From: Asterochloris sp. CNOR1
Taxonomy: Eukaryota; Chlorophyta; Trebouxiophyceae; Trebouxiales; Trebouxiaceae
NCBI GenBank assembly: GCA_963969365.1
Contig: OZ017758.1
Span: 1,612,001-1,676,000 of the forward strand
Length of the DNA: 64,000 nucleotides
Direction of reading: 5' to 3'
A model generated the notes under the pieces. The model saw only the letters and a list, made by a program, of their open reading frames with translations, had not been told where the DNA came from and made no database searches. Shown here piece by piece: positions 1 through 64,000 of the stretch. The position numbers and the translations under genes are program-made. How positions within the stretch are numbered: position 1 is the first letter of the stretch; each line of letters opens with the position of its first letter.

Positions 1-3000
1 GCAGTGGTGCCTCAGGGCAGGCTACATGGTCAAGCTCCTCAAAGCCATGACTGAGCCTCGTGGCTACCCGCTGCCATGTGTTTGCTGCTTTCCCGCATAC
101 CTGGTTCCAGACTTTTGCTCGCAGAGAACGGCCTCCAGCCGTTATCATGCACACCTGTGGCACGTGAATCCTTGACGCATTAGCCTGTATTTGTGTTTCA
201 GATGGATCCCATGACAGAGCCTGACCTGCAGGCGTGCTGCAGTGGTCCAGTGCAGCCATCAGTGTCCCACTGCGCCCGCCCTCAGTGCTTTCCAGGACCT
301 GCACACCACACAAAACATGCTGAGCACCTGCAGCACATGGCACACCAGGCCTGCTGCATATGCATGGCTGCGTAGTCCTTGCCTTCCTGGTCACCAGGAT
401 CAGGAGAGAGAAGAGTGTGTGGCTCCTACATGCTACACCCCCTATCTCTGGTGGCAATTTGCCCGCACCAGCCTGCAAGCATTCTGAGACATACAACCTC
501 CTGCTGCCATTGACAGAGGGCTGGCATTGTCCTGCTGCCTGGCCAGCAGCACAAGGACCGGCCTGACAATCATCTGGCTGACAGCTCTCACTGGTGTCTA
601 TGACCAGCAGCAGCAAGTCACCCCACAGCAGAGTGCAACAAACCTCCAGGTTTTCCAGGGCAGCCCCATCCATGGCCATGAACTCGGGCCCCTGCTGTGC
701 AGCTGACATGTCCTCAGCTGTGGCCATAGCTGCACCGAGGAGATCAGGGCAGCCTGGCAGCGCCTCCAGACGCTTCAGAGGCACCACAGACCTGTATGGC
801 ACAACAAATGACTGCACCCTCGTCTTCAACAATGGGCTTGGTATCTGCTGTGTGTCATGAGGTAGGTTTGAAAGCAACAGCATTCAGCATCAGCTTGCTC
901 AGCGGGCTGCTGCACACCATCGAATGGTGGACAGATGGGGCATCAGATATGATCTGAGCCTGGGACAGGGCACCTTGTGAGTGCACGAAAGGAAGCCTGC
1001 CTAGGTGGCAGGAGCTGCTACAGGGCATGTAGAGCAGGTGTATGCAAGGCTGAGGCAGACATATGTGCAAGCACATGCAGAAGGGAGGCCCCACCTGTCA
1101 AGGAGGAGCTGGCGCAGGTAGCTGATGCAGCCACCCAGCGCACACATCGCTGCTGAGCATGCTTCTCCTGCCTGAGTGACTGCCTGCAGCACAGAGGTGC
1201 AGAGCTGAGTCTGCAAACAGACAGAGAGCAGTTGCGCTTGCATGGCACAAGCATACACAGTCAGCCTGGGCTGCGCGGCCTCCACCATTGCACCAGGTCC
1301 CACGCACAGCACCAAGGGGTGCATCATGTTCCAAGGCTGCGGCATTCCTACACTGAGCATACCAGCCCAGATGCACCAGAAGGGTAGCTGGGCACAGCAG
1401 AAGGGCTCCATGACCAGGCACTAACCTGCAGCATGGCAGGCTACTTGCTGGCACTGTGCTTAGCCATGGTCTTGCAACTGTTTACCTTCAGGAAGCAGAC
1501 AGAGCGCCAACAGAACAGCTTACCTGCAACACCGCAAGTGATTTGCTGGTGTCCCGCTGACCCACCAGACCTGCCAAGAATTGCGTAGATATCAAGCTCG
1601 AAACCTGCAAAGCGACCCAGACAGTCACCTGCAGCACCGCTGGCCAGGTGCTGGTGTCCCGCTCATCCACCATTTCTGCATCCTCGCTGCCGCCAGCAGG
1701 CTCCGCAGAGCGCACAAAGTACCTGGAGCCAAACACAGTGGGGACTGCTGTCAAGTGCCCCTCTCTCAAGCATCTAAGATATGTTAAGGACCTCCCTGAG
1801 CTGCAAGTCTCACCAAGGTGTATCCAGCCCGACGGGATAAGATCCTGTTGGAGCAGCACTGCAGCTGGGACCCCGGGAAGGAGCCCTTCTGCCCTAGGGA
1901 CTCCAAGGGAGGCCATTCTTAGCACTGTGACTGCCACACCTCACCAAAACAGTCTGCCCGCATACAAGTACTGAATTGCATGCTCTGCGTCAGACATATG
2001 GAGGGGCGGCGGCCAACTCGACCTACTGCACCTAGCAGCACAGATCTCCTCAAAGGCCTGCTCTGCATCCCAGAACCCGCCCTTCCCAGGGACAAGCTCA
2101 TTGATACGGGGGCTGCGCAGGCTGGCCCGCAGCAGCTTGTGCGTGACAGCGCTGAGGCGCCCGCGGGGCAGGATCAACTCGGCCGGCATGAGGGCAGTGA
2201 TGTGCGCACGCAGCTGGGTGCGCAGATCGTCATCGTCCCTGCACGGGGAGATCAGCAGCAGCCATCGCAGCCTGACTTTGTGGCCAGGCAGAGTGATGAC
2301 ATCTGCAAGCAGCCAAATAAAGAGTGCATGTCCCACCAGCCAGAGCGTTGCAGTGGCGCCTGGGAGGCAACCCCATGGCATGCACTAGCCCATTGAGTAA
2401 GCGATCATTGCCTTGCCAAACAGGACTGGTAGGGTGTGTCGTGGCATTCATGCTGTTTCTACGAGTGAAGCCGTATCAGTGTGTTTTGTTCCCGCAGACG
2501 ACCCCAGAGGACCTTGACTGTGCATGTGATGCCCCATATTCCTGCAGCACCCAATGCCTGAACAAGATTGTCATTCCCCCCCCACAAGCAGTGCACGATC
2601 TGCTGCACAGCGGCTGGCAGGCAGCAGCAGCTCACCACTGGCCCAGCAGCATTCTGCCGGTTGCCACGTCTACAGCACATGCCCCAAAGCGGATGCGCTT
2701 GGCGCTGTGCCCAGGCTGAGGGGCACCAGCAGCGCCACTGTCCTCAACTAGCTCCTCTGTGACTGCAGGGGTGGGCAGGCATGGGCCATGAGGGAGCCTG
2801 ATCCAAACAATACTGTGCAACTGCACCACTGATGTGCACAGACCGGCATGAGGCACCCTTGCCAAACATGCAGCAGACATACGTAACCCTGCCGAATAGG
2901 TAGGCCTTGTTCATGCTAAAACCAAGGGCTCAGCAACCCTGCTCACCTGCCAGAAGGTAAGAAGCGTCTGGGGTGGTCTGCAGCATCTCGGCATCTGTGA

Positions 3001-6000
3001 GGGTGCCCTTAGTTAGGATGGCCACCAACTCCCTGTTGACCACTTTCACCTGCACAACCATGGCATACCCCACTTCATGGAAATTGAGGGCATCTGGTTG
3101 CCAGCAGCAAGGGCCAGCCTCGCCATGGCCACCCCAGCAGCAGGGGCCAGCGTCGCCTGGGCCGCGCAGCTGCTGAGGCCATTGTCAGGGGCTGCTGTGT
3201 AGCTCCTGTATCAGGGCCCTGATTCATTAGACTGCTGCCCTGCTGAGCTGAGCTGCACTGCGGTGCCTGCCGGCACTGCTCCAATCAGTGGCATTTATGC
3301 TGGCGGCCTTCTCCAGACCTTCTGCCCCTGCAGACTGTGGGAACCTAGCTACTGCCACACAAGCTTGTATCTTACAGCCTGTTCCTCAGCAGCGTCTGGA
3401 TTCCCTCAGCAGCCTCTGCGTCCCTTGCCACCCACCATATTTAGCTTGTTGGCCTTTCGCTCCTCGTTCCTGATCTTAAGTTGATCCGGGGTCTCCGTCT
3501 GCTCCACAACCACTACCTTGTACCCTGCCCGGGCCAGCCTTTCCGCATTGCTGTGGTAGTTCTTCTCAGGGAAGCCACAGTGGGGTTGGTCACCCTGCAG
3601 CCACTGTGACTGAAGTGAAGCTCAGAATGTTGGGGAGCAACAGTGGGGCTGGTGACCCGGCGACAAATGTTGTTGGCTTGATGATTAGGGACCACACAGC
3701 TGATGCTCAAGCACCCCAGCAGCCTGCTTGGAGGACCTGCAATGAAACTGAATGCCAACTGCAAGTTCTGAAGATGAGTGCAGATTGCCTGTGGTCGTTC
3801 CTGCTTTGATGCTGTGGTGCTTCACTTTGAGAAAGCCACCATGTGGCTGGTCACCCTGCAGCCACGCAATGTTACGTAGGGATGTCGACTAGTCAGTATC
3901 TGCAGTGAAGCTGTGCTTCTGCAGACAGCACTGCTGGGCTAAGGGAATCGCCTGCCTTGGCGAGACAACCCAAGTGAGCAGTCAGCAGCTGAGAAGCTGT
4001 GCTTGCAGCCTGTGGGGCAAGCAGCCCAACAGTCCTGAAGCAGCCGAGCAGCATCGCTGCGTCTGCAATGCATTTTGTGGTGCCAGAACGCTGTCTGCAG
4101 GGCAGTGACAGTAGCAGTAGCAGCAGCACAGACAAGGTCTACCTGAACACCACCCACCTTCATGTAGATCAGCCCAAGCACCTCGGCACCAATGTGGGAG
4201 TCCATCTCAAACATCTCATAGAACTTCCCCTGCAGGCATGAGATATGGTGGCTCATGCAGAGCCCTGCAGGCAATGATGACCTGTGCAACCACTTGGAGA
4301 TTCCTCAGTGCATAAGCTATGCACCGTGTGGTCCCTGACGAGATGCCCACCCACTTGCTGACAGTGAAGCAAAAGGTCATAGGCAGGAATTTCAAGCAGA
4401 TTCAGCCATCAGGATGTCATGCTGATCCCACAGCGCCTCACCATCTTGAAGAGCATGACGGCATCAAAGTGCCTGGCTTTGAACTCCCACCTGCAGAGGG
4501 ATGCAGGACGATCTTTCTTGTGCCAGGTCAGCAAGTCACAGCCAGCAAACTGCGCGATTGACAGGCTTCTCATGCCTCACACTCAGCAGCAACCCAGGTT
4601 GGAGGAAGCATGGTGAGCAGACACCAGAGTGCAGCCTGGACCAGAGTCCTTCCTCTTAACAGCTCGCAACTCTCACACAGCATGTCGGGGCAGCAATGCT
4701 TCTGATGAGGACTCACCACTGGCGCTGCCCATCTGAGATCTTCTCCTGCTTGAACCACCCCTCAGGGATGTGCAGGGTTCCAGGATCATAGTCAGGGTGG
4801 TCTGGGCGCCGCCTACTGCCATCCCTGCAGGCAACAGTAACCCGCCTGATGCAATGAGTAGGCTGACTGCAGACCAGAAAGCTTATGCGATCTGGCAGCC
4901 TTGCAGGCAGCAGCAGTGTGCACGTGAGGTGCTTATGTATGCCATGTCACCTAGCGATACAGGGAAAGCTGTGCCAGCTCTGTTGCATTTGAGCAGGCTG
5001 CAGTTTCCAGACTGATGGTGTCCTGGCATGGAAGCCACAGCCGGACCCAATGCTTCAGGAAGCTTTGCTAGGTGACGAGGTCAGGATGCCACAGGCGAAG
5101 TTCAGTCACCTGATCTTTGCTGGGTGCAGGAAAGGGAATTTGCTGGCGGCACGTGCAGCAAAGCGATCAGCATCTGTGTTCAAGGTGGCCTTGCTGCCTC
5201 CTGCAGGGGCAAATAGCGCTGCCTGAGCAGCCAGCACTCTGTGTCTCACAGCTGACACCCTTTGCCTGCCTGGCAATGAAGAACCCCTGGAAACCTGAGG
5301 AGCTCATGCCGTACAGCATGGTGGAGCTCCCCAGATGACTCTGTACCTGACAAGCTGGCAGCTGGGGCACCGTCACCTGCCTGGTATAAGGCACAGTCAC
5401 AGTCAGACGCCAACCCATTGCTTATGCTGCCCTAAACACAAGAGCTGCCCCTGAACAAAGTGATGTTAGACAGACTTGTCTGACCTGTGCCACAAAAGTT
5501 GGCTGCCAGTCATGCAGCAGGCAAGTCTCACCTGCCCCCAGGGGCCGTCTGCCCATCAAAGGAGCAGGCCTGTCTCACCTGCCACTTCGTCCACCAGAGT
5601 GGGCTGCTCGAGGTTGCTCTGCAGGCGCCCACGCTCGGCCACAGACAGCGATCGCCTGGCACTGCTGGCAGGCGTGCTTGTTGCAAGCGGCCTGGATGCT
5701 GGGGTCTTTGTTGCAGGCGTCTTTCCCTTTACGCTGGCCTGCAGTGGCCAAGGCCCAGCTTTGCAGCTGAACAAGCTACTTGTATAGATCCACTCCTGAG
5801 AGCTGATGGAGCCCTCTGCAGGTCTAGTGTCTGTTGGCGTCACAGGCAGTGCTTACATCCAAACAATTGCCCTGGCCCACAGTGTCAATGATGCCTTCTG
5901 GCGGCTTGCAGGATGGTGGCACACCCTGTTGCTGGCAGAGCTCTTTTCAGGCCTGCTTCTCTGTGCCAAAGCTGACATCAAGTAGCAAGTATGCAGTCCA

Positions 6001-7678: not shown

Positions 7679-7767
7679 CTGACCCTGAGACCCAGTGGAG
7701 TTGGGTCTTGCAAAGGCTGTTTTGTGCAGATCCAGGACTGCAGCAAAGCTACTGCTGTCAGCTCAAG

Positions 7768-8382: not shown

Positions 8383-8412
8383 CAAGGGGGTCAACTCTAC
8401 TAGATTGCTGCA

Positions 8413-11400
8413 GTGGTTACAAAAGCTGCTGATGGCTCAAAAGTGTTTGGCCAGCCTGCTCCTGCCCTGAGCAGCAGCAGGTTGTGCTTTGACTGCAGAC
8501 TAACCAGCCTCCGCAGATCCTCGTTTAGTTCACTGGCCCTGCAGATCCTGCGAGACCGCGCTGGCCTGCGAAAGAGTGGCTGGCCTTTAGGTGCATTGGT
8601 CACTCCTGTGCCCCAGGCAGCCACTGCTCTGCCAGTAGTACAGGGCACTCCACTCAGCTGTGTCCACTGCCACTCTGTTCTCAACCCGTACTGCAAGGTG
8701 AAGCTGCGGGGCCTGCAAGTCAAGGTTGGTTGTGTTAGTCATGCCCTTCCACATTGTTGAGTTCCAGGCCTGAAGCAGACGTTGTATGCTGCGGGGTACT
8801 GCCATTGACATTCTTGATGAAACTCCTGCAGCCTGTGCTGTTGACACGGCAGCATCCACCCTCATAGATAACATTGACTCGCATGCCCGGCATGCGACAG
8901 GTTGTTTGCTTGACATGCAGGTGGAGCCCAGCAACGGACAGTGGTCATGCATCTTCTGTGGGCACAGGAACGACCCTGTTGGTGCCCTGGCCACCCAAGC
9001 CGTGCAGGTGAAGGCAACTGGTGCCCAGTTGACTTCACACAGCCCGATGCGTGGTCATAAGGGGCCAAGCAGCTGCTTCCCTCTGTGTAACCGCACCTGA
9101 ATGGCATCTCAGCAGCACTGTGTCCCCGCATGAGATGTGCCACACTGGCAGCTGAGGGATGCATTCCACTGCCATGACAGTGCTGTTGGCAGAGTTGGCC
9201 CTTGTAATGCTGCCTTCACCAGTGGCTGTGCAGCACTCCGCTGTTTTCCCTACGTGGCCTGCAGTCCCTCACCAGTGGCTGTGCAGCACCCTGATGTCCA
9301 TCCTGCGTGGTCTGCAGTCCCTCATTGGTGACTGGGGCAGCACTCTGACCCTTCTGCTGTGTATAACCTGCAGTCCCTCCCAGCGCTGCATGCCGATGGC
9401 ATCGACTATGTGCAGCGCACAGAGAGTAGCACCAATGGACATGCCAGCGTTGTCATCGTTGCAGACGTCACTGGGGAGCCTGCAGAGCTAGCATCACTGC
9501 AACATTCTTTGGAGCAGGTGTGCGGCGTTCCTTTGACCTTACAGAGCTGGCTGTACACGCCCTGGTGACCTGCAGAGTGTGAACCTGAGGTGGCGGCTGC
9601 AGACAGCTAGGCTGACATGCAACATGCATTTGCTACAGCTCAGGTATGACGCGCATGCCATTCATAGCGTTGCTGCAACGACCATTAGTTAGCTGCTAGC
9701 CCTGCTGCTCTGCGGAGGCAGCCAGCATGGTTGTGCAGCAACGACTACCCTGGAGGGCTTGATTCGCACGATGCAGGCGCTGGCTCTTATGCCCCAGTCT
9801 GCCCATGTGGCTCTTCTGGCATGCAGCGGCGCGGTGGCAGTGCACCGCCTGCACACCGCCGGCGCGGTCACAGCTGACATGGTGGCGGGGGACAGCGCCG
9901 AGGCAGCCCTGCAGGCCACCACACAGCTGCAGCGCGGCAGCCAGGCAGGGCAGCACCTGCTGCCACTGGGCACCTGCCAGAAGGCGCTAGCTGAGGCTGT
10001 TCAGTCCTGGAGGTGATGTTGGCACTGCTTGCTGTCAGCGGGCTTGTGGGTGGATGCGCCACAACATGTTACACAGCTGCTGGCCGACTCTGCGCTGCAC
10101 CTCACCTGCCAGGTCAGGCTGTTGGGTTCCAGACGGCATTCTTTGGGTTTGCAATCTGCAAAGGGCGTGCATTCTGTCATATGGACTGGTCAGCAGGGCT
10201 GGCTCAGCAGCACATTCAAGGCGCTGTGGAACAAGATGGGCATGGACGTCTGCTGATGGCAGCACAGTATGTCCTTTTGAGTGTCCGGCAGGGTAGCAGG
10301 CGGCTCCTCTCACCTGTTCTGACTGGGCAACCCCGCCCTGCAATTCCTGTGCAGGCCCATGAGGGGGACAGGGTCGCGCAGGGAGCTGCCGCGCTGCCTG
10401 GGTGCTGCCCTCCTAGCTGCCCTCCAGATGCTCAATGATGCAGAGCAGCAGGTGCCAAATGGTGAGTGCTGTGCAGTCGTATATCGCTTTGTGCTAGCTG
10501 CTCCCGCTGGAGCTGCTGCTTGGTGCGCCCAGCCGATCATGCAGCGCTCAGGTTTTTTGTTTCTCACACCCCTGCCACTGCAAATGCCTGCACCTGACAG
10601 CTCAAGCCATGGCTTCACCATCTGCTGCATGCACTTTGTGGCTCATGGGCCAGCTGCCAACCCCAGTGTGAACACCTTGCCTGCTGCCTCAGCAGACGCA
10701 CCTTGCTGGCTGCATGTTTGGCCCATGGATCAGCAGCAGCTTGTGTGCAGCAGCAGCCTGTGCACCGTGCCAGCCTGCTAAACACCTCGCTGCCAGCAGG
10801 TGTTGCTCGTGGACCAGCAGCACATGGACGCTGCCCGTCTGCTGCCTCAGCAGACACATCCTGCTGCACGCTGGCATGCCTCTTGGACCAGCAGCATTTG
10901 CGCTGTATCCGCTTGCTGATGCAGTAAGCCGCACTTTGCTGCCTGCAGGTGTGACTGAATCATGGGCAGCCAGCCACCTGGTGTATTGTCATTTTCACCT
11001 GCTGCCTCAGCAGACTTACTTTGCTGCATGCAGGTGTGGCTCATGGGCCAGCAGCCACTCCTGTACATCAGTACGCAGATTGCACCCCACGCGTGCAGGG
11101 GCGCAAGCACATTCTCATGCTGACATCTGGCCCCATCAGCAAGGTGTGCCAGCTGAGACGTGACAACTGCTGACTCAGCTCCTTTGGTGCTGTCAGTGTG
11201 TACACTGCGAACTGTCAGATGCTGGTCACTCGGTCTCATGCCGGCAGAAGGCCGCGCCCAGGACGCCGGTGCGCTGCAGGGCGCAGGCTTTATGCACAGG
11301 CTTGCCATCTGTCTCTCACCCAGCAGTTGCCTGCAAGGCCCGAGCTGTGGAACACAACAGCCCAGGCCAGGAACACTTTCGTGCCGGGCAGCAATGATAG

Positions 11401-14400
11401 GGCTGCTATGCCAGCCTTGTTTTATCCAGCAGTTGTTCTGCAGGGCCCAGGGTTTGTGCCCTTTGCGGGCATAGACGGTCAGCTGGGGGCAGAAGATGCT
11501 TACACAGCAGAGCAGGGGCAGACCTTCTTTGAGCAGCTTACCAGCCAGGCAGGCAGGGCAGGAGTCACGGTCGATGTGATTGCCGCCGGCGTGGCAGCCA
11601 TCAACATCCCCCTGCTGGCCCCGCTGGCCCACCAGACTGGCGGGATGCTGCTGATGCATGAGAGTGAGCTTCCTGTAAGACCTGCGATTTGTCTTTGTTT
11701 GCGCGGCTTGCTCTAACCAAAGTATGCTTGGGAGGGCTGCATAGTTCTACAGGCCATGCTGAAGCAGGGGCAGCTTGACCTTTCTGAAAGCTGCTTGGGG
11801 ACATCTGGCCGCCCCAAAGGATGCCACTCTGCCCATGCATCACCAGGCTTTGCAGTTTCAACATTCCTACTTTTAGCCCACACAATATGCCCTGCAACTG
11901 CTGGCTTCTCAGAGCTGCAGGCCCAGGCGCCTCAATCGCGGCACCTTTCAGCTCTTGCAGCAAATGCGATGTGTGACCCCTGCACACTGGCGCAGGGCAG
12001 CAAGTGGTTCTGGCCGACCCTCTCCCCTTGGCCAACAGCAGTCTGTCCTGCCGCTGCAGGCATCTGCAAGGTGGCCTTGCGGCGTCCCTGCAGCGCCTGA
12101 TGGCCCCACAGCGTACTGCCCTGCTGCTACAGGCTTCTCGGAGGTGCACAGCAGGTCACTCAGCCACCCCTGCAGCGCTTGCTGCAACAATGAATTCTAG
12201 TACCTGCAAAGCAGCGCCAGGCAGCACATGATTGTGGCTGACGTACAATACTTGGCTGACAATAATTACAGCCCTGCCACTGCAGGCTTCTCAGAGGTGC
12301 AAGCAGCGGGCCTCGCGGCCCCCCTGCAGCGTCACATAGGCACGGACGGGACGCTGGAAATTCATGTGTCTCGTGACCTGAAGGTCACAGAAATCATTGG
12401 GCCAGTTGCCCTGCTGGAGGCATCAGCAGCTGAGGTGCATAGCCAGGTCCTGGGGCGCCGGCTGACCCGGAGGGCATGCCGCCTGAGTGCAATTGTGCGT
12501 GGTCAGGCAGCCGCCGTTGCCTGGGAGGCGCTCCGCGACTTGCAGGGGGATGCGGTGCACGTCCAGGTGAGGTAGGGACCTGCTTGGGGCAGAATGAGAG
12601 AGGGGTTGCATGGTGCCTGGGGGATGCAATGCTGTGCGCTGCCTGAGCCCGAGGCTGTGCCCGCCTGAGTGCAATCGTGCCGGGCAGGGGGCTGCCGCTG
12701 CATGGGAGGCTGTCCTGCAGGTCAATGCAATGCACTTTTAGGGAAGGCAGGGGCAGCATGGCACCCTGCTTTCCCCGGCAGATTGCTGCTGTGGCCATAA
12801 TGCAGGCTGCTGTGTGCATCCGGCCTTCAAATTGCCTGCATAAGGTGCTATTGCTCTGCTGACTCATTGGCTTGGCCATAGCCAGGTGCCTGGGAAACGG
12901 CAGTCTGACTGCACCTTGCAGGACATGAAGGAGCCCGGGACATTGGTTTTCCAGGGGCTGCATCAGCTTGGAATATCGTCCCTGCAGGTAGCCCTGTCCT
13001 GGAGGGCGCATGACGGCAGCATCGTGCAGCGTGTGGTGACCCGCCAGATGAGGACAACTGCCAGCCTGGCGGGGGTGGTGCGGGATACTCAGGTACGGCC
13101 TGTCCCCAAAAGCCAAGCGGGGGTGGTGCGGTCTGTCTTGTGCAGGCAAGTGGTGACCTGCCAGCTGAGGGTGGCTGCCACCCTGTCAAAGCTGGTGCAG
13201 ACACCCCAGGCAAGGCTGATTTTGCAGCCCCATCCCTGTGCGGCTTGAGGTCGCTGCAATACCCACTCTGGCTGAGGTGGCGAAGGCAAGCTGCTGATGC
13301 CACACGCTTTTCTGCAGCCATTGTTCCTCTGAGCTGTGGCCTGTTGATTAGAAGCATGCTGACGGTTGGAAGGTGCTTGCTGCATACTGGGTGTTCCTCA
13401 GCCTGGACCAGTCTGGCCATGTGCAGATGGGGGACCTGGCTGTGCTCTATGGCAAGCAGCTGATGGCTGAGGCACAGCGTAGTGGCGCAGCATCAGGGCG
13501 GCATGTCGCGGACACCTTGCGGCAGCAGACAGGTCAGACAGGCTTGGTCAATCTACATGTTGGCGTTACTCACCTGCCGTCCTACCTGGAACTCAAACCT
13601 TACGCCCGTCCCATGGTATGACACCTGCACGCACCAGCTGCCTGCAAGCCATGTGATGCACATGTGCACCGTATCGACTGTGCACCTTAACTGCACCAGT
13701 GCTGGCCGGTGCTTCAGCGCTATCTTGAGTTGCAAGCCCTGCACATGCTGCAGGGACTCACCTGGCAAAGCTGATATCCCACCTGTCCCAAGGGGCTGGG
13801 CAGCCCGGGCCAGCAGGCGGGTGGCTACGCCGCCGAAGCCTCACGCCACTGCCTCCTGAGCTGCGCCTATATGCCCAGGTATGCTCATAGGCCAGTACTG
13901 TGCAGAAGAGTTGCCTCGTCCTCATGCCAGCTCGCAACATGTTGACGCCACCCATGTTGCAACAGGCGGCTATGTGCCCTGCAGCGGCAAGTGTGGTTTC
14001 AGGCCTGGGCGTGCTGGCCAAGTGGCCTCTGCATTGCTCTTTGTGGGGCTCCCAATGGATGCTGTGCCCAACTCTGAAATGCCTGTACCAATTGCGTCAG
14101 CAATCCATTGAAATTCAATCTCTGCGATCTGAAGATGCTGCTTGCCGTGCAGTCGCATACCGCGTGCACTCAACCCCCTCATGCTGCAAGCAATGGCAGT
14201 CATGCCCTGCCATACATGACCTACAACGTGACTACTGGCTGGCTGGTGCACCTAACATTCAAGTGCAGCCCAGAATTTACTATCCCCTGCCCTGCCGGGC
14301 AGGCCCCTTCCGACCTGCAGTGGGGTCCTGCATCTGTCATGCAGCTGCAGTCACATGCCCGTGCTGCAGACATGTGCAGGCTCTGTCTCACCTGCAGCAT

Positions 14401-15801
14401 GCCCTGTGCTGGGCCACACAGGACGCTTTGCACTGCCCACTGCCCTGCCCTGCAGGCTCTGTACCATCTGCAGCGTGGCCCCATGCTGGGCCACATCCTG
14501 GGGCACCCAGACGAGCGCGCTTTGCTGCACGTGGCCTTCCTGTCTGCTGGAGGTGACATGGCCTGGCGCATGCTGCTGCCGGACACCTATGCGCTGGACC
14601 TGGACAGCGCCCATGCAGAGCACATCCCGCCTGTGACAATGGCACTGGCCACGAGTGAGCATCTGTCAGGCTCAGCATGAGTGGCAACCAGCCCATGGCT
14701 GATACTGCATGCGTGCCCATGCTGCACACATGTCCCTGTGAGCCAGATGCCTGGGGCCATGCTGAGCGTGTCACACCTGTGGCCGTACCGAGTGTGTCGC
14801 ATCTGTGACCTTGCACTTCAGCTTGTGCCAGCAGTGAGAGCCTGCTTTGCCTTTGACTTGCTGGAGACTGTCCAACCTGCAAGGATGCCCATGCTGTCCC
14901 ACTGTTGGAGCAGCCGTGCAGACCGCGTCCTGCATGGGATGCTGATCGCCAGTGAGAGGCTGTCAACAACTGGGCCACATGTCTGTTGCTGCTTCACGGA
15001 TGCACTTCTGTGCCCTTGCTGCTGTCCCTGTGGCGATCATGTGAGGAGAGGTGTGACCACACTCCATACCTGGGCCAGCTTGCTATGTGTGACGTGCAAT
15101 GGCACCGACACAGACCCAGCCCGCACTGGACAAAGCACGACTCCCTTGGCGGCACCCCTGCCTGCAGGTGCTGCCCTTGTGCTGGACAATGGGACCCACA
15201 TCTTCACCTGGTTCAAGCCCACACCGGCTGGCAGGGACCCAGATCCCCAGCATCAGGAGCAGTGCAACCAGGTGGTCCAGAGGTTGTTGGCAGACCGCGT
15301 CCCGGTGCCAGCAGTGCGCCACATCCAGGCGGTGGGTGCTCTGTGGTGCACAGTGCACACCCAGCCCCATGCCTTGGACTGAAGCCTCTCTCTGTGCAGG
15401 CAGCCTTTCCAATGTCTCAGGTGTATGCAGCTCTACGATCAGCAGCCGGCTTTCGATTGCTGCCAGTCCATGTGGTTGCACCTGAGCTCGCCCAGGTGCA
15501 AGTCTTTGCTGTCTGTACTCTGTCTGCTGATCAGCGTTACCTACCCTCTCGCTTGCAGGGCTCTAGCGATATGCGCTACATCACATGTAGGCTGGCCCCG
15601 CTGCACAACGACTCCCTGGAGGACCAGCAGGCTCAGTTCTACCCCCTCCAGGAGCTTCAGCCTTGGCAACTGGCAGCTCTGCAGGCTGCCATGCCCCCCT
15701 CTTCTGAGCTCAGCTTCCTTCAGTGGTGCCAGAAATTGGGGTTGCAGGGTGACCATAATGCCTTGATGGCCGCCTTGCACCAGCCGGCTCTGACCAGATG
15801 A
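8413..15801 (+). CDS. Divergent SEC23-like COPII coat protein
   Basis: SEC23 forms the inner COPII coat with SEC24 at ER exit sites and acts as GAP for SAR1. The N-terminal segment (WPLGALVTP, then the zinc finger CVHCHSVLNPYCK near 8655-8697 and WSCIFCGHRN from the next exon, which begins near 8922) is the SEC23 zinc finger. Trunk-like exons follow near 9370-9520 and 9760-10020. Further exons encode LMLTSGPISK near 11110, GQTFFEQLTSQAGRAGVTVD near 11520-11580 and PLAHQTGGMLLMHESE near 11625-11670. The beta-sandwich part lies at 12284-12570 and 12988-13092, and the helical part near 13430-13530. The gelsolin-like end (YHLQRGPMLGHILGHPDERA near 14460-14515, then DMRYITCRLAPLHNDSLEDQ near 15570) runs to the stop at 15799-15801. 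Identity to canonical SEC23 looks low, closer to the divergent plant SEC23 paralogues. The start is uncertain: the first safe exon begins near 8550. At least five introns contain copies of neighbouring exon edges. Confidence 0.82.
9216..9381 (+). repeat. SEC23 intron array, units of about 55 bp
   Basis: Three units each contain CAGTGGCTGTGCAGCAC or a close variant and end CCTGCAGTCCCTC or TCTGCAGTCCCTC. The last such acceptor leads into the real exon near 9371 (SLPALHADGIDY). Confidence 0.75.
10615..11060 (+). repeat. SEC23 intron array of acceptor/exon-start copies
   Basis: The real exon begins near 11035 after TGCATGCAG with GTGTGGCTCATGGGCCAGCAG. Decayed copies of this edge lie near 10636, 10712, 10802 and 10949, most followed or preceded by CTGCTGCCTCAGCAGAC. 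Spacing is irregular, 75-150 bp. Confidence 0.7.
11889..12330 (+). repeat. SEC23 intron, four copies of one exon start
   Basis: The real edge near 12284 (CTGCAG then GCTTCTCAGAGGTGCA) is preceded by decayed copies near 11900, 12050 and 12135, each with a C-rich tract, a CAG and a GCTTCTC/GCATCTG-like start; three end in CCCTGCAGCG. Confidence 0.75.
12481..12735 (+). repeat. SEC23 exon end copied into the next intron
   Basis: Exon sequence 12481-12560 (GCCTGAGTGCAAT, ... GGTGCAC) recurs at 12663-12735 past the donor, starting with the same 13 bases and ending ATGCAC after small gaps. It lies wholly in the intron. Confidence 0.8.
13033..13209 (+). repeat. SEC23 60-bp exon duplication, in frame
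   Basis: 13033-13092 (real exon end) and 13150-13209 align without gaps; I count 41 of 60 identical bases. The encoded pair is VVTRQMRTTASLAGVVRDTQ and VVTCQLRVAATLSKLVQTPQ. The copy has GTGCAG before it and CAG/GCAAGG (a GC-type donor) after it, and the 117-base offset is a multiple of three. Confidence 0.85.
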
Positions 15802-22069: not shown

Positions 22070-25000
22070 TTGCAGGAGCCAACAGGCATGAAGCTTCATG
22101 CATCACATGGGAATGTTGATTTCGAGAGTTACAGACTCAGCAGGACCTTGGCAGATGATCCTGGGCACATCCTAAGCCTGCCTGGCCATGTGGCAGCACT
22201 GCCTGGCACAGGCTTTGACTACCTGCACACCCGCGCTGCAGCCTTGCACAATCACCTCTGGTGCCAGGGCAGCAGCATGCTGTGCATTGTGCGGGCCCAA
22301 CTGCCAGAGAGGTTGCTGGTCCTGTCCTTTGACGGCCTTTGCTCCAGGGATGGCGGTGCATTCAGGCAACTTGCAGGTGAGACCATGCAGGACGCTCTCT
22401 GAACATTTTGCGCTGTCACCACAATGCAGTCAGATTCCCAGCTACTTTGGACCCTGCTATGCAGAACTTCCTGATGAGGACTCAGATGTCAGCATGCCTG
22501 CTCTTTGCAGCGCTGCACTGGATCCCTCTGCTGTGCTGGTTGAGAGCGGCAGGAGTCAGCAGCAGGTGCTGCTGGTCACAACCGGCAAGGGAGACCTCAG
22601 TGTGTTCAGGGATGGACAGCAGGCAGGTGCGCATATGCTCTCAGCTGCTTGGCTGGGCTGGCCCATCAGGCGACCTGCTGGGGATGCTGTGCTGTGGTGC
22701 GCATACAGGGCCCCGACCTGGCAAGCTCATACAGCCCGAAAGTGCTTTACTGCAGATGTGGTTGAGCTGCCAGCAGCTAGCTGTGTTGAATTGCTGTGCC
22801 TGCATGCAGGGCTGACTTTGTTTCCCCTGCGACCAGCACCCCCACTGGAAGGAGTGAGGCCCTTCATGTGCGCAGCAGCGTACTCACCCTCCCCTGGTGA
22901 GCCTCAAAGCAAGGCAAGCAATTTTGGTGTGAGGGGGCTGCCTCCTGTAAGCACAGGCTATCATTGGTGCCGCCTTCTGCTGTTTGTGGCGGCTGCATGC
23001 CCTCAATACAGGCTGATGTGTGTGCAGCTCAGACATTTATGTGTGAAGGCTGCATCCTGTAGCACAGGCGCTGTGAGCGCAACACAGGCCTGTTGCTGCA
23101 CTGAGCGGTGGAGCCTGCTGCTTGGCCCTAGAGCTGCTGCTGACTGGCGCTGTCCAGTAACGACATGCACACAGCAGGCGTCAGAGACGCAATGCCAGCA
23201 GGGAGGGCTGGAGGTGCCTGCCTGGCAGCCAGAAGCATGGGTCAGCTTCACAGAGACAGACGGGAAGGTCCTGCATGCCACTGCTGCCTGCCGACCTGTG
23301 GTGCAGCGTTGCCCCGTCCTGCCAAGGCTCCCAAGAAGGGCCGTATGAGTCAGCACTCTGTCATGCTTCGCAGCCACTTGCAGGACTAGTGAGAGCAGTA
23401 TGCTGGAGCATCAGGGACAAGAGCGAGGCCAGGGCAGCCTGCTGCGAGGTGCACCTTGTCAGCCTAGCTCTGCCAGACAGCAGCTCAGGCCCCTGCCAGG
23501 TCACAGGAGTGGAGGTGCTTCAGGTGGGGGCACAGCATGCACGGTGTGCATTGGCAGCACCGTTTTTGCCCAAACTACATCGGCCTACAGATGCGCACTA
23601 CATAGGCCCATGTACTGCAGACACTCTGGTGTCAATCAGTGTCTGTTGCCAACTGGATGACTGCAAGTGTGTCTCTGCCCCCTCACCTGAGGACGCTGCC
23701 CTGCAGACCAGCGCCCTGCCACCCTTTGCAACATTGGTGGAGCCTGCACATGATGCTGTGGTGCTGGCGCTGCAACCTGAGCAGGCTGTTGCAGATGTCA
23801 GCAGCCACTCAGCACTGGGTGAGGCAGCTCGCATGTACGCCTGCAGTGCGTTCTGGGGACAGCGCCAGCCCAGATGCCTCGTCACTGTGCTGGTAGCCTG
23901 CACTGCCTTGCACACCTTCACTGCCTGACCCTTGTGATCCCAACCCAAATGCCAGCATTTGCTTGGCACTTGGTGAGGCAGCCTGCATAGTCCTGTACAC
24001 CTTCACTGCCTGCCCTTAAGATTGCTAGTCCAGTTGCCAGTAGCCGCTCAGCTCTGGGTGGCGCAGCTTTCCTGTGCGTCAGCACTGCTTGGCTGCAGCC
24101 AGCAGTTGCTCAACCCGTTTTGCCCATGCACTGCCCACTCTGTCACCTGGCAGGAGATGTCTCTTCTTGCACTCCAACCAGAGACATCAGCCTGCCTGTG
24201 ACTGGTGAAGGGCATGGTGTGGCTGCAGGAGTCAAGCCAGGAACTGAAGAGGAGGAAGCCAGCCCGCACACTCTGGGGGAGGCTGCAGCCCGCCTGGCAC
24301 AGTACACATCTGAGCAGGAGGCAGGCGAGCTGCTATTCACCCATGCTTCTACCGCGCCTGCTGCGGCCACAGCTGGCGCTGGCCGCCACAGCTGAGCAGC
24401 ATGGCATGTGAAAACCCGTACTGCTCTGTGTAGCCAGTGCATGAGTGTCGGACACATCTGTCTGCTTCAGGCTCAGCTCAGAATGTGCACTGCAGACGGC
24501 TGCCGCCCATGAGGTGCTGGCTGCTCCCGGCTCAGACCAGGCTATGCACTGCAGAGGCCCTGCCCCAGACGCAGTACGTCGACATGTGGCATGAGACAGG
24601 GCCTGACAACGTGGGAGGCATGGGCTCTGAGCCTGGCGTCGCTGTGTACGGCTACGTCTGCCAGGCAACCAGACAGCCTCTAGGGAGCAACTCGGCTGCC
24701 CAGCCTGAGGCATGGTCGCCCGGCATGGCTGCGCCAAACAGTGCAGCGGCTCAGCCAGCCAGCGATGTGGTCGGGCCTGGAGAGAGTGAGCAGGCCCCTG
24801 CACAGCAGGTCAGGCAGGACCAACAGCCCAGGGCCCTGTCTGCTCCCACTGGTCAGGCCAGTGGGCCGGATCAGCAGCCCCAGTCTTTGGTTGGCGGTGC
24901 TGCCATGCCTCGGCAGACTGCTGTTGCGAGTAGGCAGCCTGGGTCCCTCCCTGGTCAGACCAAGGGCCTGTACGAGCAGTCTGGGGCCAGCACTCCGCCT

Positions 25001-49000: not shown

Positions 49001-52000
49001 TGGTGACCTGGTCTGGATAGCGGAAGCCATGGCAATGTGAGAGCACCTGTGTGTTTTGGAAGGCCAGCAGGCAGCTGCTGGGTCATATCCGCAGACTTGG
49101 CAGTGCAGTCCAGACTGGTGGCTGCTATGGCAAGGTGAGGCGGGGCGTCCCTTTGTTTTTGAGGCTCTGCAGGCAGCTGCTGCGTGCTGCCTTCCTCTTC
49201 TGGCAAAGGTCTGCAGGGGTTCCTCTGCAGCAGCAATGGGTGCAGGGGCTCTTCAAAGGATGCAGGGAGCGACATGGCATGCTGATCAACAGGTGATGTC
49301 TGTCAGAGCATCTGGGGCCACCTCTTAGTGCTGCATTGTGAGCCTCCGTCAGTGCCATGATGCTGCAGGGCGTTGAAGAAAAGCAGCACAAGCCTCACTC
49401 AAGTTCGGGCCCTGCAGCAACCAAAAGTCTACGTTGCTCGTGCAGGCTCGCAGCATGCAGGACAATATTGGCGACTGTACAGAGGCTGGCCCCTCCCGCG
49501 CAGTTCAGATGATTGGCCTCAACAATGTGCCAGTTGCTGGTGACGAGTTCATTGTGTTGCCAAGCATTGACGAGGTGAGCTGTCATTGCTGTGCAGCGTG
49601 TACGTGGGGCTCATGGACCACCGCGTGCCATGTAAGCTTGTCACCTATGTGGGACCATGGCACATTATCAAGCTAAACTTTCAGAACATGTGCCAGCAGC
49701 CTGTTGCTGCCGAGCATACCTGAATTCCAGAGCCCTGCACACACCTCGCCATAGCGTGAGGCAACACTGCCAGCATTGGGGATTCCCTAACCTGGCCAGC
49801 ATTTTCAGTGCTCTCCAGGGCAGGGCGCTTGCACGAGATGCAGTGCAATTGTTAGGCAACCTGTGATGTGAGCAGCCAGGCAGCTGACAGACACTTAAAC
49901 AGCAGGCGGCACCAGCATGAGCTGTTGACGCCTCAGACTGTCCAGCTGCTGACCTGGTGTAGGCTCTTCAGCTTGCAGTCACGATACTTGAAGATTACCT
50001 GCAGGCCAGCAAGATTGGTTGACCGCTGCAACAGTGCTGCGAGAGCACTTTCATGGTCCCAGCAGGCTTGCAGAATCGCAGGGGCTGCCTCGGATGCCTG
50101 GTGCCTGACACTTTGACTGCTGTGGGAACACTGCAATGGCGCTGCAGGCTCGCAAAACTGCTGGAGCAGCCTCAGACGCCCAGCGCCTGGATCGTTTGAC
50201 GGAGCAGTCCTCAGGCACCATGATCACCACACGCTCCATGGCCAGCATGGACGATGAGGAGGAAGCTGTGCAGCGCATCAATGTCATTCTGAAGGTGAGC
50301 TGGCTGATGCTTGCACAGCCTGGTCTTGGGCCATGCCATGCTATCCCGAAGTTGTGAGGCGACAAAGCAGCGCATCAACCTTATGCTGCTAAGCCTCTAG
50401 GTTGGATTGATATGAAGGGCACACCTTCACTGTGAAGTCATGCCATGCTGTCATGAGGAGTGAGCAGGCAATGCCACCCGTGATGATGTCGTTCTAGAGG
50501 GTGGGTCTCATGGTAGCACACTCAGTGCTACATGGGCAGCACCACTACCTAGAGGCTGGCCTGGTGGGCTGTCCGTAGACAGTATCTACTTTGCTGGTAG
50601 GCTGGGTCGCCCAGCTGCAGTCTGTCCCCTTGGGTCCTTGCCAGGCCTTGGAGCTGAGCAGCCTACCGCCTGTTGCTGACGTGCTGACTGGTCGAGGGGG
50701 CCGCTGTGAGGAGAAGGCTGCGCAGTAAGGCGAATTGCCTTGGTCAGTGGCCAGCAGATACAGCCACCTTTGTTGTGGGCGGCACAGGTGGCACGCAGGG
50801 CAGCGGCCTTTGGCCCTGCATTGTCCAGTCATGCTGTACTTGGAGCCCACACTCAAGCATGGAAGAGGGCTGCCCTGGAGGTCAGAGCCAGGGCCCCTGT
50901 GCTGCTCACATTCACTGGTAGATGGCAGCACCTGCTCGCTGGTGCCAACGCACCATCAGGAGCTGCCTGGGCTGCTTCAAATCTCTTGGGACCCGTCTGG
51001 GCCCCTGGACACCTCATACCACCATGCTGCAGCCTGTTGACCTCATCTGCCTTCAGACTGAGCACCCGTGAGGCTGGCAAGGACGCCCTGACACCCCTGC
51101 TCCAGGAAGCTGTGACCTTCCACACAGGCTGGCACCAGCCATTGACGTAACCCTTTCAATGGCCCCACCCATGCAGGCAAACCCCTCCAGCACCCGGGAG
51201 GTTGTCAGAGGCTGTCAGAGGTGCCTGTCAGCCCTGCCTCATGAGGCTGTATCGCTGCCAGGCTCCCTGCCTCAGCCAACACCACGACCTCTATGTTTGC
51301 TCCCCCGTGCAGGCCGATGCCTCTGGCACTTTGGAGGCAGTCAAAGGCGCCCTGGCAGCCCTTCCCCAGGAGGCTGTGGCTCTGCGCTTCCTGCTCGCAT
51401 CAGCCAATGATATGACGGAGTCTGACATTGACCTGGCAGACGTCAGCGATGCCATGATCATCGGGTTCAACATGGAGCCCTCTGAGAGCGTCATTGCTGC
51501 TGCCAAGAGCAGAGGTGGGGCACTGCTGGGGTGCTCTGCTGCATGCCTCAGTTCCCTACCGGAACGGCTGCTGCCTGAGATGATGCATCTGCTTGGTTCA
51601 ATCTGCGTGCAAGATGTGGCTACGCCCGATAGTGCTGCACCTAGCAAAGCCCCCCGATCTGCTGCGCATGCCCATATCTGCTTGTCTTAGACGAGTGCTG
51701 CTTTGCCGGGTCTTCTTTGTCTGTCTCTTGTCGTGAAGGGCTAAAGGTAAGTGCTGGACTGCAGCAACTCAAGGAGGTACTCTCGTAATGTACCCTGCTG
51801 CAGGAGAGGCCATGAACAGAAAGCAAGTTGCTGGACAATCTGTGGGCCGTCATTACTACATTCTCAGAGGTGCTGCACCTAGATCAGGCACCAAGTCGGT
51901 GACTGCACTCGACACTGTGCTGCAGGTGTGACTGTGAAGAGCTACAACATCATCTATGAGCTGCTGGATGACATGAGGGCAGCCATGGAGGGTCGTCTGG

Positions 52001-55043: not shown

Positions 55044-56405
55044 ATGGCACCTGGAGCTGGTCCTTCCGGGTCCACAACAGAACAGTTGGCGTAAGTAGAG
55101 CCAATGACTTGGAGAGGGCCGCTTTCAGGCTGCAGGGTCTGCAGTCAAGCTGCCTTCCTGCAGGTCGCTCAATGATGCCTTGAAAGGCAGGCCAAGGGAT
55201 GCTGGCAAAGCCGACCTCTACATGCAGCGTGCACGGTGCCACATGGAGTTGAGGCATTTCCATGATGCAATGGACGATGCACTGGACAGCGTCAAACTAG
55301 ATGAAAACAGGTTGGTTCTGGTGGCAGTTAGTTCCCTGGTTGGCAGGTAGCCTCCAGTCATTCCTGCAGCCGTTCATTGGCAAGCAGCATTTGGGGCCTG
55401 GCCTCCTTTTGTGCAGACATAGTGCATGGATGCAGGCACACTGTGGCAGACGGAAGTCGGATCAGCTGCATACAAGCAAGGGTGGGGCTAAGGCAGTGCC
55501 AGATCAGAGCAGCATTTTTGCATCCATTGATCCTACATAGCTATGGGTTCATCTGGTATCACTGTCAGGTCTGTCAGCTGCCGCAGCCTGAGACTGCTTG
55601 TCTCAGCCGGCCAGCATCTTGGTTGGAACATCTCAAAGAAACACATCCAATCACTTGAGCACCTCTTGGCTGAGAACGTGCTGCTGCTGTGTGTCACCTT
55701 CCTGCAGTACCAAGGGCTGGTCCGACGCTGGGGTCTCACTGCAGTGTGCATGTTCAGGCTGCAATGTAATTCTGCTGCAAGTCTGTGTCTGCAGTGCTGG
55801 GGGCTGCTTAATAGAGGGGGATGCCTGGGGGTAGATCAAGCACTGCAAGGGGAGCCTGCCAACACCCTCACCTGCTATGCGCTGCCAGCAGCGCTGAAGG
55901 CTGGCTGATGTTTGGGTCCCTCTTTGTCACACGGCGGAGCCTCACAACTGCTCTCTGGCACCTCCCTGCGGTGCTGAGGGCTGGCTGACACTGACAAGTG
56001 CCTGTTCGTCAGAGAACATTAGCACCGAATGTGATTGGGCTGCCCTAGACTTGCTGCTGTATTCCCTGCCTGCAGTGCTGACAGCTGGCTGAACCTCAGG
56101 CAGGCTCGGGAAAAGACTGCCAGCACTACACAGGAGGCCCTTTAGAGACTCAGCATTGGCTGCATGCTGCCTGCAGTGCTGAGGGTTGGCTGACGCTGGG
56201 GGATGCCTGGATGAAGACCAAGCACTACAAGGGAGCCCTGTCAGCCTGGGTGCGGGCGGCAGAGCTGGACCCCGGGAACCCTCGCATCAACCCCCGGATA
56301 GCAGAGGCGGAGATGAAGCTGAATGAGAGCAACAGGCAAAAGTATGCAGCCCCTCAGGAGAAGGCTGGCAGCAACGGCGCTTCCAGGAACACAGCCCCTG
56401 CTTAG
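55044..56405 (+). CDS. Small TPR-repeat protein
   Basis: Three exons splice in phase to a protein of about 145 residues. Exon 1 (55044 to about 55090) gives MAPGAGPSGSTTEQLA. Exon 2 (about 55164-55312) gives SLNDALKGRPRDAGKADLYM and RARCHMELRHFHDAMDDALD, one TPR with a conserved Ala/Gly spacing. Exon 3 (about 56177-56405) gives EGWLTLGDAWMKTKHYKGAL and SAWVRAAELDPGNPRINPRI, a second TPR, then a charged helix with ESNRQKYAAPQEKAG and a stop. Two TPRs are too few to name a partner; it resembles co-chaperone fragments of the STI1 type, but that is a guess. The 0.86-kb intron 2 is notable: it contains four decayed copies of the start of exon 3. Confidence 0.75.
55791..56245 (+). repeat. TPR gene intron: four copies of the exon 3 start
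   Basis: The real edge (CTGCAGTGCTGAGGGTTGGC, 56171 on) has copies at about 55791-55862 (the longest, matching about 70 bp including GGGGGATGCCTGG and TCAAGCACT), 55870-55907, 55950-55987 and 56066-56100 (the shorter ones ending at GGCTGGCTGA). Confidence 0.85.
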
Positions 56406-56902: not shown

Positions 56903-59900
56903 TCATCTCCCGCCGCCCTTGCGCTTCCGGAAGAACTTCTGAGCCTCAGCCAGCCCATTCTCACTGGCAAAGGGGCTGCTGCCGGCGTTGAAGAAGCTCA
57001 TGGTGCCCTTGTTGCTACTGATGAAGCTGCTGGTGTCCACAGCAGTGACTGGGCGCCTGGTTGCCAGGTAGTTAGCGTGCCCCTGCAGGTTCAATCATGA
57101 AGCTGTTGCAACTAAGGCTGTGGGCACTCATGCTTCAGGATTGCCATGGCCAGTGTGGTTCTTAAGGCTGCATGTGAGATCGACAAGGCTGTCTGCACAA
57201 GCTCAAGCTTTGTAAGTCACTTTACATGATGCATGAGGGTGGCAAGACGTCTCTTTGACTGAAGTCCTACCACCAGCTCCCTTGACGGGCTGGCGCCAAC
57301 AGGGATGTCTCACGCAGCTCTGCAGCACTCGGCCACGGCAGCTGGGCTGCCTCCTTGCCTGTGTGGTCAGCCTGGTGGGCACGTCCGGGGTGACCTTGAC
57401 GTCTGCTGGCCCGTGCGCCTTGTGCCCGGTGTAGAGGGGCACACGCTGGCGGCTGTACTGATCCAGGCTGTGCAGCAGGTAGTCAGCCTTCTGCGCCCTG
57501 GGCTGAGGCAGCGTGCCTGACGCCTGGAGGCAGGCTCGCTCGTTGGTCTGGCTGCTGGGCACAAAACCGCAGTACCCTGCAGACAGTGGCAGGACACAGC
57601 TTTGCGTACAGAAACCACACTGAGGTGAGGTTGGCCTGATGCATTTAGCCCATAAAGGCAAGGCAGGGCACTCAGCACATGTGATGCATTGTCACAAACC
57701 TGTGCTGTCCAAACCCTGTCACACTTAATTGGGACAAAGCGCTTGACCTCTGCAAATCACTGCCTGACAGCTAGGCCCAGCTGTGCCTGCACCTTAAAAG
57801 ATCATTCAAAAAGGGCTGAGCCAGCAGCTGGCAGGTTGGATGCACTCAAAAGATCAGTCAGGAGGGCTGAAGGAGCAGCTGGCAGGTGGGATCCAGTGCG
57901 CCGCGCTGTCGCGCAGACAGTCGCTGCCGGCCTTGCGGCTGTGCAACCCCATGCATGTGGCGCTGACCTGGCAACTGGCGGGTGGCCCGCACTGTGCCAG
58001 CATTCATGCCATAGGTGGTGCTGCAGGGGGTCATGTCCACTGCGCGGGCAGCATCATGGTCCAGGGGGTCTGAGTTGTACACCCCATAGTCATCTGTGTA
58101 AGTGGACGCAGCATTGAAGCGCGGCGAGACGGTGCCCTGCACCATCTGCAAGGCAGCAGCAGCAGCAGCTGAAGGCTGTGAGAGGCCTGTCGGCATCAAG
58201 GAACAGGCAGACTAGATTGGTGAGAATTGCTGCAGCATGCCAATCTTGATGCAGAGGCTTGTCAACAGCTCAGCCAATGCAGGGTGGTCCTTAATGTTGT
58301 AAAGGTAATTCTGACATTGACCCTAGTTCAGCACAAGCCCAGGTGCAGCAACTGTGGTGCATGCCGGCACAGCTCTGGATCTCACCTGGTGCTGCTCCTG
58401 CGCAGGCTGGCCAGCCCCTCCACTGGTGGTGGTGCTGGCCATGATGCTGCTGCGTGCCAGAGGGGAGTCTGGCATGGCCATGCTGCTATAGGTGGTTGAG
58501 AACCCCAAAGGCGTGCCGCTAAGACCCTGCTGCTGACGCCTGCCGTGCAGTGTCCCAGTCTCCAAGCCCCTGCATTTTGAGGGAAGAACTTTTTTTGCAA
58601 ACAGCTTGTGTGCACAGATACATGCTCACAGCCTTCCCACTTGTCAGACGCTGCGGCCTCACAGGTTCTCCAAAGGCAGAGCCGTCCTTGGCAAGAGCTG
58701 CATGGGAGATACCACTCTCAATGTGCTGCTGGCTTGTATGCTGGCTGTGCTGCAGGCACTGCCCTCTGCCTGTAATATCAGTCGGTCCAGGCACTAGTCC
58801 ATGGAGGAAGCCTGCCCCTATCCTCAGGCCATGAGCCACAAGCGTATCTCCAGCCCACTTGCGCACTCTCTCACAAGCAACTCACTTGTTGCGCAGCCCC
58901 ACAGTGTGGCTGAGGTGGCCGTGGACAAATGCAAGCAAGTGCAACCAGTTATCAGGCTGCCATTGTCATCTCATCTGCATGTCAAGCACACCTTATCACA
59001 CCCTTGTCCGCCCAGCCTGCCGCTCAGCTTCACGATGCAGCTCAGCGGCCACAGCCCACAGGCAGAGCAGCTGGCAGGGTGAGACCCCTGTCAAACCTGC
59101 TCGCAAGGCCTGCCTGCGCTGACCCCCCTCACTGTGTCAGGCTCACCTGCGTGCCCCCTCGTATCCACCCAACGTGCTGCGCAGCCCCACAGTACGGCTG
59201 AGCTGCCCCTCAGCGCTGGGCCCCCCCTCCAACAGCTCTGCCTGGTAGGTGGTCCCAGCAGTGAAGGGGCGTGCAGGGGCAGGGGGTCGCTGTGTGAACC
59301 AGTACCCCCCACTGCTCTTGTCTGGCCGGTGATAGTCGGCTGGGTTGGCTTCAAACTGCTTGCGGTACCTGCAGCAGTGAGGGTTTGTAGGCGACTCAGC
59401 TCTTGTGGGGCTTGCGCCACTGTGCTGGATCAGTCTCAACCTGCTTGCAGTACCTGCAGCATTACTCTGTCTGCTTCTGCGTCCCTAACAACTGCTTCCA
59501 GGGCAGGTTGCAGAGGCCACCTAAGCCAAGTGCTGGTGCATGTCACCAGGCTGCTGTTGGACGCAATCTCCTCAGTGCACATGATGCCTGGGCTGTGTGA
59601 GCGTGGCAGACACAGATGCAGTGGTCACTGCGCCAAGCATCGAGACAGAGCGGCCCAGGGCCTCTTGCTCACAGCCAGAGCTTTGTAGAAGCATTGGACA
59701 GCTGCCACTGACCCACCAGCAAGGGTAGCAGCAGAAGGCTTGAGAAGGGGCCAGCGCCCACCAGCAGTACACAGCAGCAGAACATGCCAAGCAGCTCACC
59801 AGCTGGTGGTGTGGGAGTCGGCGCCTTCCACCAAAGCTGCCTGGCGGTGCACGCTGTCAGCTGGGCGCCCAGTGTACTCTGCGTTCTTGGGCTGCAGAGG

Positions 59901-63543: not shown

Positions 63544-64000
63544 GTAAGTGCCCCTCTGCACAGCAACAAGCAGTGTTGCATGCATGTGCAGGGGTCAGGG
63601 GTTCTGCGTCCCACATCGTGGGCCACCCTGGGAAATGGAAGCCTTGCAGTGAGCCCCCTTTGTGTGCACAGCACCAAGCTCCTGCTGGCTGCATGGCCTG
63701 TGGGCTGTCTGACTTTGGCAGCCTTCTGCACATGCTCGCCCTACCTTCAGGGTCCGAGGGTCTGGCTGCACGCCCTGTGGGCTGTCTGCAAATTATGCAG
63801 CAAGCGCTCTGCTGCTCAGCAGCCTGGCTATCCAGTCACAGATGGGCTGTGCATGCAACGACTGCCCTTTGCCAAGACCAAGTCTGGTGCCCATGGTGCC
63901 CACTGATGCCTACAGGTTGCTTCATCAAAGTGAGCTGCTGCCGCTCGTCACCTTGTGACCTGGCGCTGCCTAGACGGCACTAAACGCAGCTTTCCCCTTT

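Follow-up and report, generated by a model that had tools for sequence, protein, structure and literature searches.

About 7% of the exon edges predicted in the green alga Asterochloris sp. CNOR1 carry a detectable copy in the sequence beside them. The best explanation, to which we give a probability of roughly 0.8, is ordinary short tandem duplication, with copies that cross an exon-intron junction surviving on the intron side and decaying there. The pattern is real, yet no new mechanism seems to be needed. This reading is directly supported by local repeats that are direct only, by repeats that extend over the full period at short spacings, by the bias of the copies toward the intron side, by preservation of frame within exons, and by the confinement of the four arrays tested to single loci.

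Sample and Gene Models

The window is the whole 64-kb stretch analysed here; it lies on contig 13 of a genome of 56.4 Mb in 21 contigs. The main sample of 264 kb consists of the window and 20 random 10-kb loci from the same genome (L001-L020), and a fresh 40 kb, kept out of gene-finder training, serves as holdout. For the lichen alga Asterochloris glomerata, an excerpt of the published description gives 56 Mb, a GC content of 56-62% and 9 introns per gene (PMC6652019), values with which the size, GC content and intron density found here agree. One random locus (L018) has a GC content of 0.52, below that of the others; its predicted intergenic DNA contains several tandem repeats of recent origin.

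Gene models come from our own hidden Markov gene finder, trained without labels on the same 264 kb. It predicts about 586-587 introns there, with a mean length of 246 bp, a donor of the form cAG/GTGAG and an acceptor of the form CTGCAG/G (the slash marks the splice junction). In the predicted introns of the window and the 20 loci, the TGCAG/G acceptor is almost invariant (T 92%, G 94%, C 98%), and CTGCAG is very frequent (361 occurrences). Pfam backs eight of the 15 window models, five via the joined protein and three via an open stretch (IF-2, TBCC and Clp protease; 4 of 20 stretches matched). The joined CUL3 protein matches the full Cullin profile (1-620 of 620), V-ATPase D matches its profile from 2 to 196 of 196, MSH6 has MutS domains I and II, the TPR gene has TPR, and the SEC23-like protein has the Sec23 trunk, with the Sec23/24 beta-sandwich slightly below the cut-off. 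The window model at 24401-25681 has a stop within the joined frame.

Copies of Exon Edges in the Window

Counting by eye from the repeat and exon lists, we find 18 introns in eight genes with a copy of exon sequence from within approximately 90 nt of the edge: two in MSH6, five in the SEC23-like gene, one in the gene at 22277, one in V-ATPase D, three in CUL3, three in IF-2, one in the TPR gene and two in the gene at 56903. The original prediction, some 17 introns in eight or more genes, agrees with this count. The coiled-coil gene listed there is weak, with one match of score 17. The individual copies are as follows (window positions).

1414..1451, minus strand: MSH6, further copy of the exon end copied at 1522..1574 (original 1617-1654, spacing 203, 76% identical)
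1522..1574, minus strand: MSH6, copy of exon end and donor (original 1627-1679, spacing 105, 77% identical)
3549..3604, minus strand: MSH6, true acceptor and start of exon 3436-3594, with copies at 3632-3670 and 3810-3865
3632..3670, minus strand: MSH6, second copy of the edge of exon 3436-3594 (spacing 63, 77% identical)
3810..3865, minus strand: MSH6, copy of acceptor and exon start (spacing 261, 77% identical, signal intact; 3826-3855 called exon)
9213..9334, plus strand: SEC23-like gene, tandem array in intron, 53-bp unit with the end CTGCAGTCCCTC (80% identical)
10637..11071, plus strand: SEC23-like gene, decayed multi-copy array in intron 10452-11098 (spacings 74-398)
11889..11922, plus strand: SEC23-like gene, copy of acceptor and start of exon 12286-12566 (spacing 382, 88% identical)
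12114..12148, plus strand: SEC23-like gene, second copy of acceptor and start of exon 12286-12566 (spacing 153, 86% identical)
13150..13216, plus strand: SEC23-like gene, exon-end copy (original 13033-13099, spacing 117, 70% identical)
14375..14404, plus strand: SEC23-like gene, copy of the acceptor region of exon 14456-14654 (spacing 76, 83% identical)
23946..23988, plus strand: gene at 22277, copy of exon end and donor (original 23792-23834, spacing 154, 74% identical)
26693..26726, minus strand: V-ATPase D, intron copy of exon 26551-26584 (spacing 142, 91% identical)
31454..31493, minus strand: CUL3, edge copy of exon 31242-31392 (original 31363-31402, spacing 91, 75% identical)
49109..49157, plus strand: IF-2, copy of exon end and donor (original 48905-48953, spacing 204, 80% identical; 49109-49134 called exon)
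55786..55861, plus strand: TPR gene, copy of acceptor and start of exon 56177-56405 (original 56168-56243, spacing 382, 75% identical)
55962-56004 and 56066-56117, plus strand: TPR gene, weaker copies of the same edge of exon 56177-56405
58853..58920, minus strand: gene at 56903, donor-side copy of exon 59147-59368 (original 59141-59208, spacing 288, 72% identical)
59399..59461, minus strand: gene at 56903, acceptor-side copy of exon 59147-59368 (original 59314-59376, spacing 85, 73% identical)

The true acceptor before the SEC23-like exon at 9374 is worded like the end of the array unit, CTGCAGTCCCTC. As the list indicates, the gene finder itself called exon-edge copies exons at 3826-3855 and 49109-49134.

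Exon Edges Matched against Neighbouring Sequence

In the edge test, exon-only probes are compared with the 450 bp beside each edge regardless of annotation (score at least 14; exons shorter than 45 nt left out). On the intron side 61 of 894 edges match, made up of 28 of 453 acceptors and of 33 of 441 donors. The coding side has significantly fewer, 22 of 894 (11 acceptors, 11 donors; p-value 1.4e-5). Shuffled pairs match at 0.37% of acceptors and 0.38% of donors, and the reverse complement at 3 of 894 edges (one acceptor, two donors). Seven of the 61 intron-side matches are exon-to-exon matches in a nucleolin-like gene rather than intron copies; this gene (16064-21955) has acidic Ser/Glu repeats and a Gly/Arg-rich tail. 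A companion test sets 40-nt exon-only probes against the exon's own introns (score at least 14; introns shorter than 80 nt left out). Here matches are seen for 13 of 444 exon starts and for 26 of 433 exon ends, while the rate against introns of other genes is 0.2%; reverse complements give 0 and 2, and probes from exon middles 2 of 290 and 7 of 281.

Would similarity persist once the common splice-site words are removed? With CTGCAG-like words masked (264 kb, score at least 14, exons shorter than 45 nt left out), 36 of 894 edges remain (20 of 453 acceptors, 16 of 441 donors), with 4 and 5 on the coding side and shuffled rates of 0.07% for acceptors and 0.00% for donors. This masked comparison with shuffled pairs had been proposed as a refutation for the whole genome; run on the 264 kb, it leaves the claim standing (36/894 against at most 0.07%). 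The holdout behaves similarly: at a score of at least 14, 10 of 125 edges match (4/62 and 6/63), with none on the coding side or in reverse, and at a score of at least 12 the count rises to 19 of 125, the coding side giving 8 and the reversed probes 2. Edges are matched 1.9 times as often as intron interiors (61/894 versus 12/326, p-value 0.04; shuffled interiors 4/326), and the exon-exon background accounts for part of this excess.

Local Direct Repeats throughout the Genome

The repeat scan compares the sequence with itself and is independent of the gene models. In the window, direct matches with a score of at least 18 per million cells number 1.9 at spacings of 1-50, 4.4 at 50-100, 2.2 at 100-200 and 0.94 at 200-400, and then 0.04 at 400-800, 0.16 at 800-1600 and less than 0.01 above 3200; the listed pairs at 800-1600 fall inside the nucleolin-like gene. 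The same self-comparison finds no inverted matches at spacings below 800. The 20 random loci show a similar curve, with 120 direct versus 4 inverted repeats within 400 bp, which indicates a process that extends beyond the window. At least one local direct repeat is present in 18 of the 20 loci, so the idea of a regional property is not supported, although the window is somewhat richer in edge matches (23/223 edges versus 38/671, Fisher p-value 0.02). At a score of at least 16 and spacings of 12-450, there are 73 direct pairs in the window and 246 in the 264 kb, against 5 at spacings of 2000-2450.

Local repeats (score at least 16) account for 6.7% of the bases in introns, 6.4% of those in exons and 3.4% of those between genes. 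Coverage peaks at exon edges (8.6% in the first 10 nt, 9.4% in the last 10 nt), is roughly 5-6% in the adjacent intron, and is 3-5% deeper than 60 nt into exons. Within exons the spacing keeps frame, being divisible by 3 in 39 of 45 exon-exon pairs; intron-intron spacings do not (36 of 92; 36, 27, 29). This combination of coverage and frame is what one expects when selection on the protein filters tandem duplications. An apparent deficit of in-frame spacings among intron and junction pairs (8/22/19) was discarded, as it vanishes once pairs called exonic by the gene finder are added (EJ 9/1/1, JJ 6/5/3). Introns with a local repeat have a median length of 370 bp (n = 81) and those without of 184 bp (n = 506), a difference that is no proof of growth by repeats, because long introns have more room. 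Two further duplications may be noted: predicted intergenic DNA holds a tandem duplication of 36 bp that is nearly perfect (56415-56486, 97% identical), and the Pro/Ala-rich N-terminal part of IF-2 holds a recent in-frame one of 51 bp (43966-44073, 93% identical).

How completely do the repeats fill their period? At least 80% of the period is spanned by 95% of 37 pairs at spacings of 12-40, 85% of 40 pairs at 40-80, 47% of 70 at 80-150, 19% of 78 at 150-300, and 0 of 21 at 300-450. Since the long-spacing pairs fall short of the full period, some of them may represent dispersed copies of short length or array members that lie far apart.

Splice Signals in the Copies

The splice signal is not preferentially retained over the exon part of the copies. 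In the edge test on 264 kb, 10 of 28 acceptor copies retain AG and 14 of 33 donor copies retain GT; the full five-base signal persists in 7 of 28 (25%) and 5 of 33 (15%), respectively. With probes that omit the 10 nt nearest the junction (score at least 13; 19 acceptor and 23 donor cases), acceptor-signal identity is 0.37, versus 0.41-0.46 in the adjoining exon, and donor-signal identity 0.49, versus 0.48-0.52. Neutral simulations under three full-tolerance parameter sets keep AG at 0.48-0.59 and GT at 0.50-0.65, and the observed retention is not higher; the suggestion that the copies keep their splice signal better than their coding part is not supported. Single copies with an intact signal do exist (e.g., 3810-3865 and 49109-49157). 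Beyond 10 nt into the intron flank of acceptor copies, identity falls to nearly the chance level (0.23-0.29), which may reflect faster two-sided decay and the ends of the duplicated units. The motif AGGTGAG occurs in introns 4 times in sense and 30 times in antisense; by our own estimate the pyrimidine bias of introns accounts for the imbalance, and we draw nothing from these counts.

A Proposed Filter on Tandem Duplication

We propose that head-to-tail duplications of tens to a few hundred bp would arise throughout genes, and that exonic ones would mostly be purged unless they keep frame, with intronic ones tolerated. A unit spanning an exon border would present the junction twice. The copy that leaves the mRNA unchanged (the downstream acceptor or the upstream donor) would probably stay in use, and the spare would become intron and presumably decay neutrally. 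The DNA event itself may be slippage at microhomology or the patch repair of nicks that lie close together; 15 clean duplications examined do not decide between the two. Duplication seems to strike the whole gene, with selection on the protein clearing most copies from exons and sparing junctions and introns. The original prediction of a repeated process is supported: the copies have the look of tandem duplication that recurred, and most of them lie on the intron side.

The exon member of an exon-intron pair is constrained, so divergence should be slower in such pairs than between two intron copies, and they should remain recognisable for a longer time. Mismatches in exon-intron pairs are 0.217 at each of codon positions 1 and 2 and 0.274 at position 3, a pattern that free decay of the intron copy, together with mainly silent changes in the exon copy, should leave. 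Comparison of identities among the pair classes is uninformative about age. The copies continue into intron sequence in 16 of 61 cases versus 2 of 61 into the neighbouring exon, and an origin from spliced mRNA was set aside on this ground.

We simulated 1200 units under four parameter sets with hand-chosen rates. The three full-tolerance sets give edge matches of 2.4-4.7%, close to the observed 6.8% minus a coding-side background of 2.5%; a tolerance of 0.3 gives too few (1.5% and 0.7%). Slower exon-intron divergence should lift the edge rate, yet with it included, simulated edge coverage lies slightly under intron coverage, unlike the observed 1.9-fold ratio. This gap, the incomplete periods at long spacings and the near-chance identity in the intron flank of acceptor copies count against our reading. 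It is conceivable, though unlikely, that exon borders are themselves duplication hot spots, e.g., by nicks or microhomology clustering at the near-invariant CTGCAG/G and CAG/GTGAG. Introns would then grow preferentially from their ends, and a lasting supply of spare splice sites would feed alternative splicing and intron sliding.

Alternative Origins

Templated insertion during end joining (polymerase-theta type), copying short nearby pieces into introns, would suit the long-spacing pairs, which are short relative to their spacing. This type of repair also yields inverted copies, however, and these are nearly absent (4 versus 120 direct), so that we regard it as quite improbable. A richness in CTGCAG, CAG and CTG, including the almost invariant acceptor and the 361 occurrences of CTGCAG, might produce look-alike edges by chance. 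Yet the probes consist of exon sequence only, shuffled pairs reach approximately 0.4%, and masking leaves 36 of 894 edges against at most 0.07%; chance is refuted as a general cause and has almost no weight, although single weak matches may be due to it. Retention of the copied splice sites for use as alternative exons or acceptors would agree with the perfect signals in 7 of 28 acceptors and 5 of 33 donors and with the few copies that the gene finder accepted as exons. Against such use, which we think very unlikely, AG and GT retention does not exceed the neutral simulation, and the spacings of exon-intron pairs (EI 21/14/20) show no bias to multiples of 3.

Could the introns owe their birth to the tandem duplication of exon sequence with AGGT in it, with the copies as remnants? 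The mechanism is documented (PMC3443670), and CAG/G is common to donor and acceptor here. A comparison of donor with acceptor surroundings at a spacing equal to intron length nevertheless gives 0 of 587 introns at a score of at least 14 (0.2 expected), 1 at a score of at least 12 (1.1 expected) and 6 at a score of at least 10 (3.0 expected), no better than shuffled; the test covers introns young enough for recognition, and old births would be invisible. We therefore hold intron birth to be highly improbable as the source of the copies, and the result accords with the claim that existing introns are enlarged rather than created. Mobile elements or introners carrying splice sites would be another source, and introners are reported, in the part of the survey cited here, from 5% of the species searched (PMC9860276). 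But all four arrays used in a whole-genome search (which skips very common words) matched only themselves, and the repeats resemble the adjoining exon, not one another, which makes such elements an extremely unlikely source.

Relation to Known Systems

Short tandem duplication, our preferred reading, has relatives elsewhere. Vaughn and Bennetzen, in 2014, reportedly described short tandem duplications in rice arising via patch repair of nearby nicks. Gao and Lynch, in 2009, are said to have treated internal gene duplication and splice-site duplication; going by description only, the likeness to our case lies in duplications that include exon-intron borders. In rice, according to excerpts of a study of varieties, tandem duplications are the commonest insertions, with an enrichment at 50-200 bp, and the repair of adjacent nicks is given as their source (PMC7971508). 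In both cases local insertions consist chiefly of direct tandem duplications, tens to hundreds of bp in length. The difference is that the rice events are polarised between varieties and drop to 5% of events by 200 bp, while ours are inferred from decayed repeats within a single genome, where spacings reach about 400. In flies and primates, again from excerpts, tandem duplication is the main source of short insertions, most of which have a tandem template as here; the events are shorter, however, and a minority are templated by the reverse strand, a kind almost missing from our data (PMC2374710). Intron gain by AGGT duplication, as excerpted, shares with our case a tandem duplication that includes splice-like sequence (PMC3443670, PMC2891723), but here existing introns lengthen and the new-intron signature is absent (0/587). 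Among the matches listed for intron gain by tandem duplication, the excerpts hold no genome-wide account of decayed exon-edge copies in existing introns; we make no claim that the pattern is unpublished.

Implications

This is a known kind of process and a new example of it, with a rate attached: in a compact genome, junction duplication has left a recognisable copy at about 7% of edges. A simple filter can leave junction copies in introns. The gene finder took some of the copies for exons, so the annotation of such genomes deserves a check. The copies also form a natural series for studying the decay of decoy splice sites.
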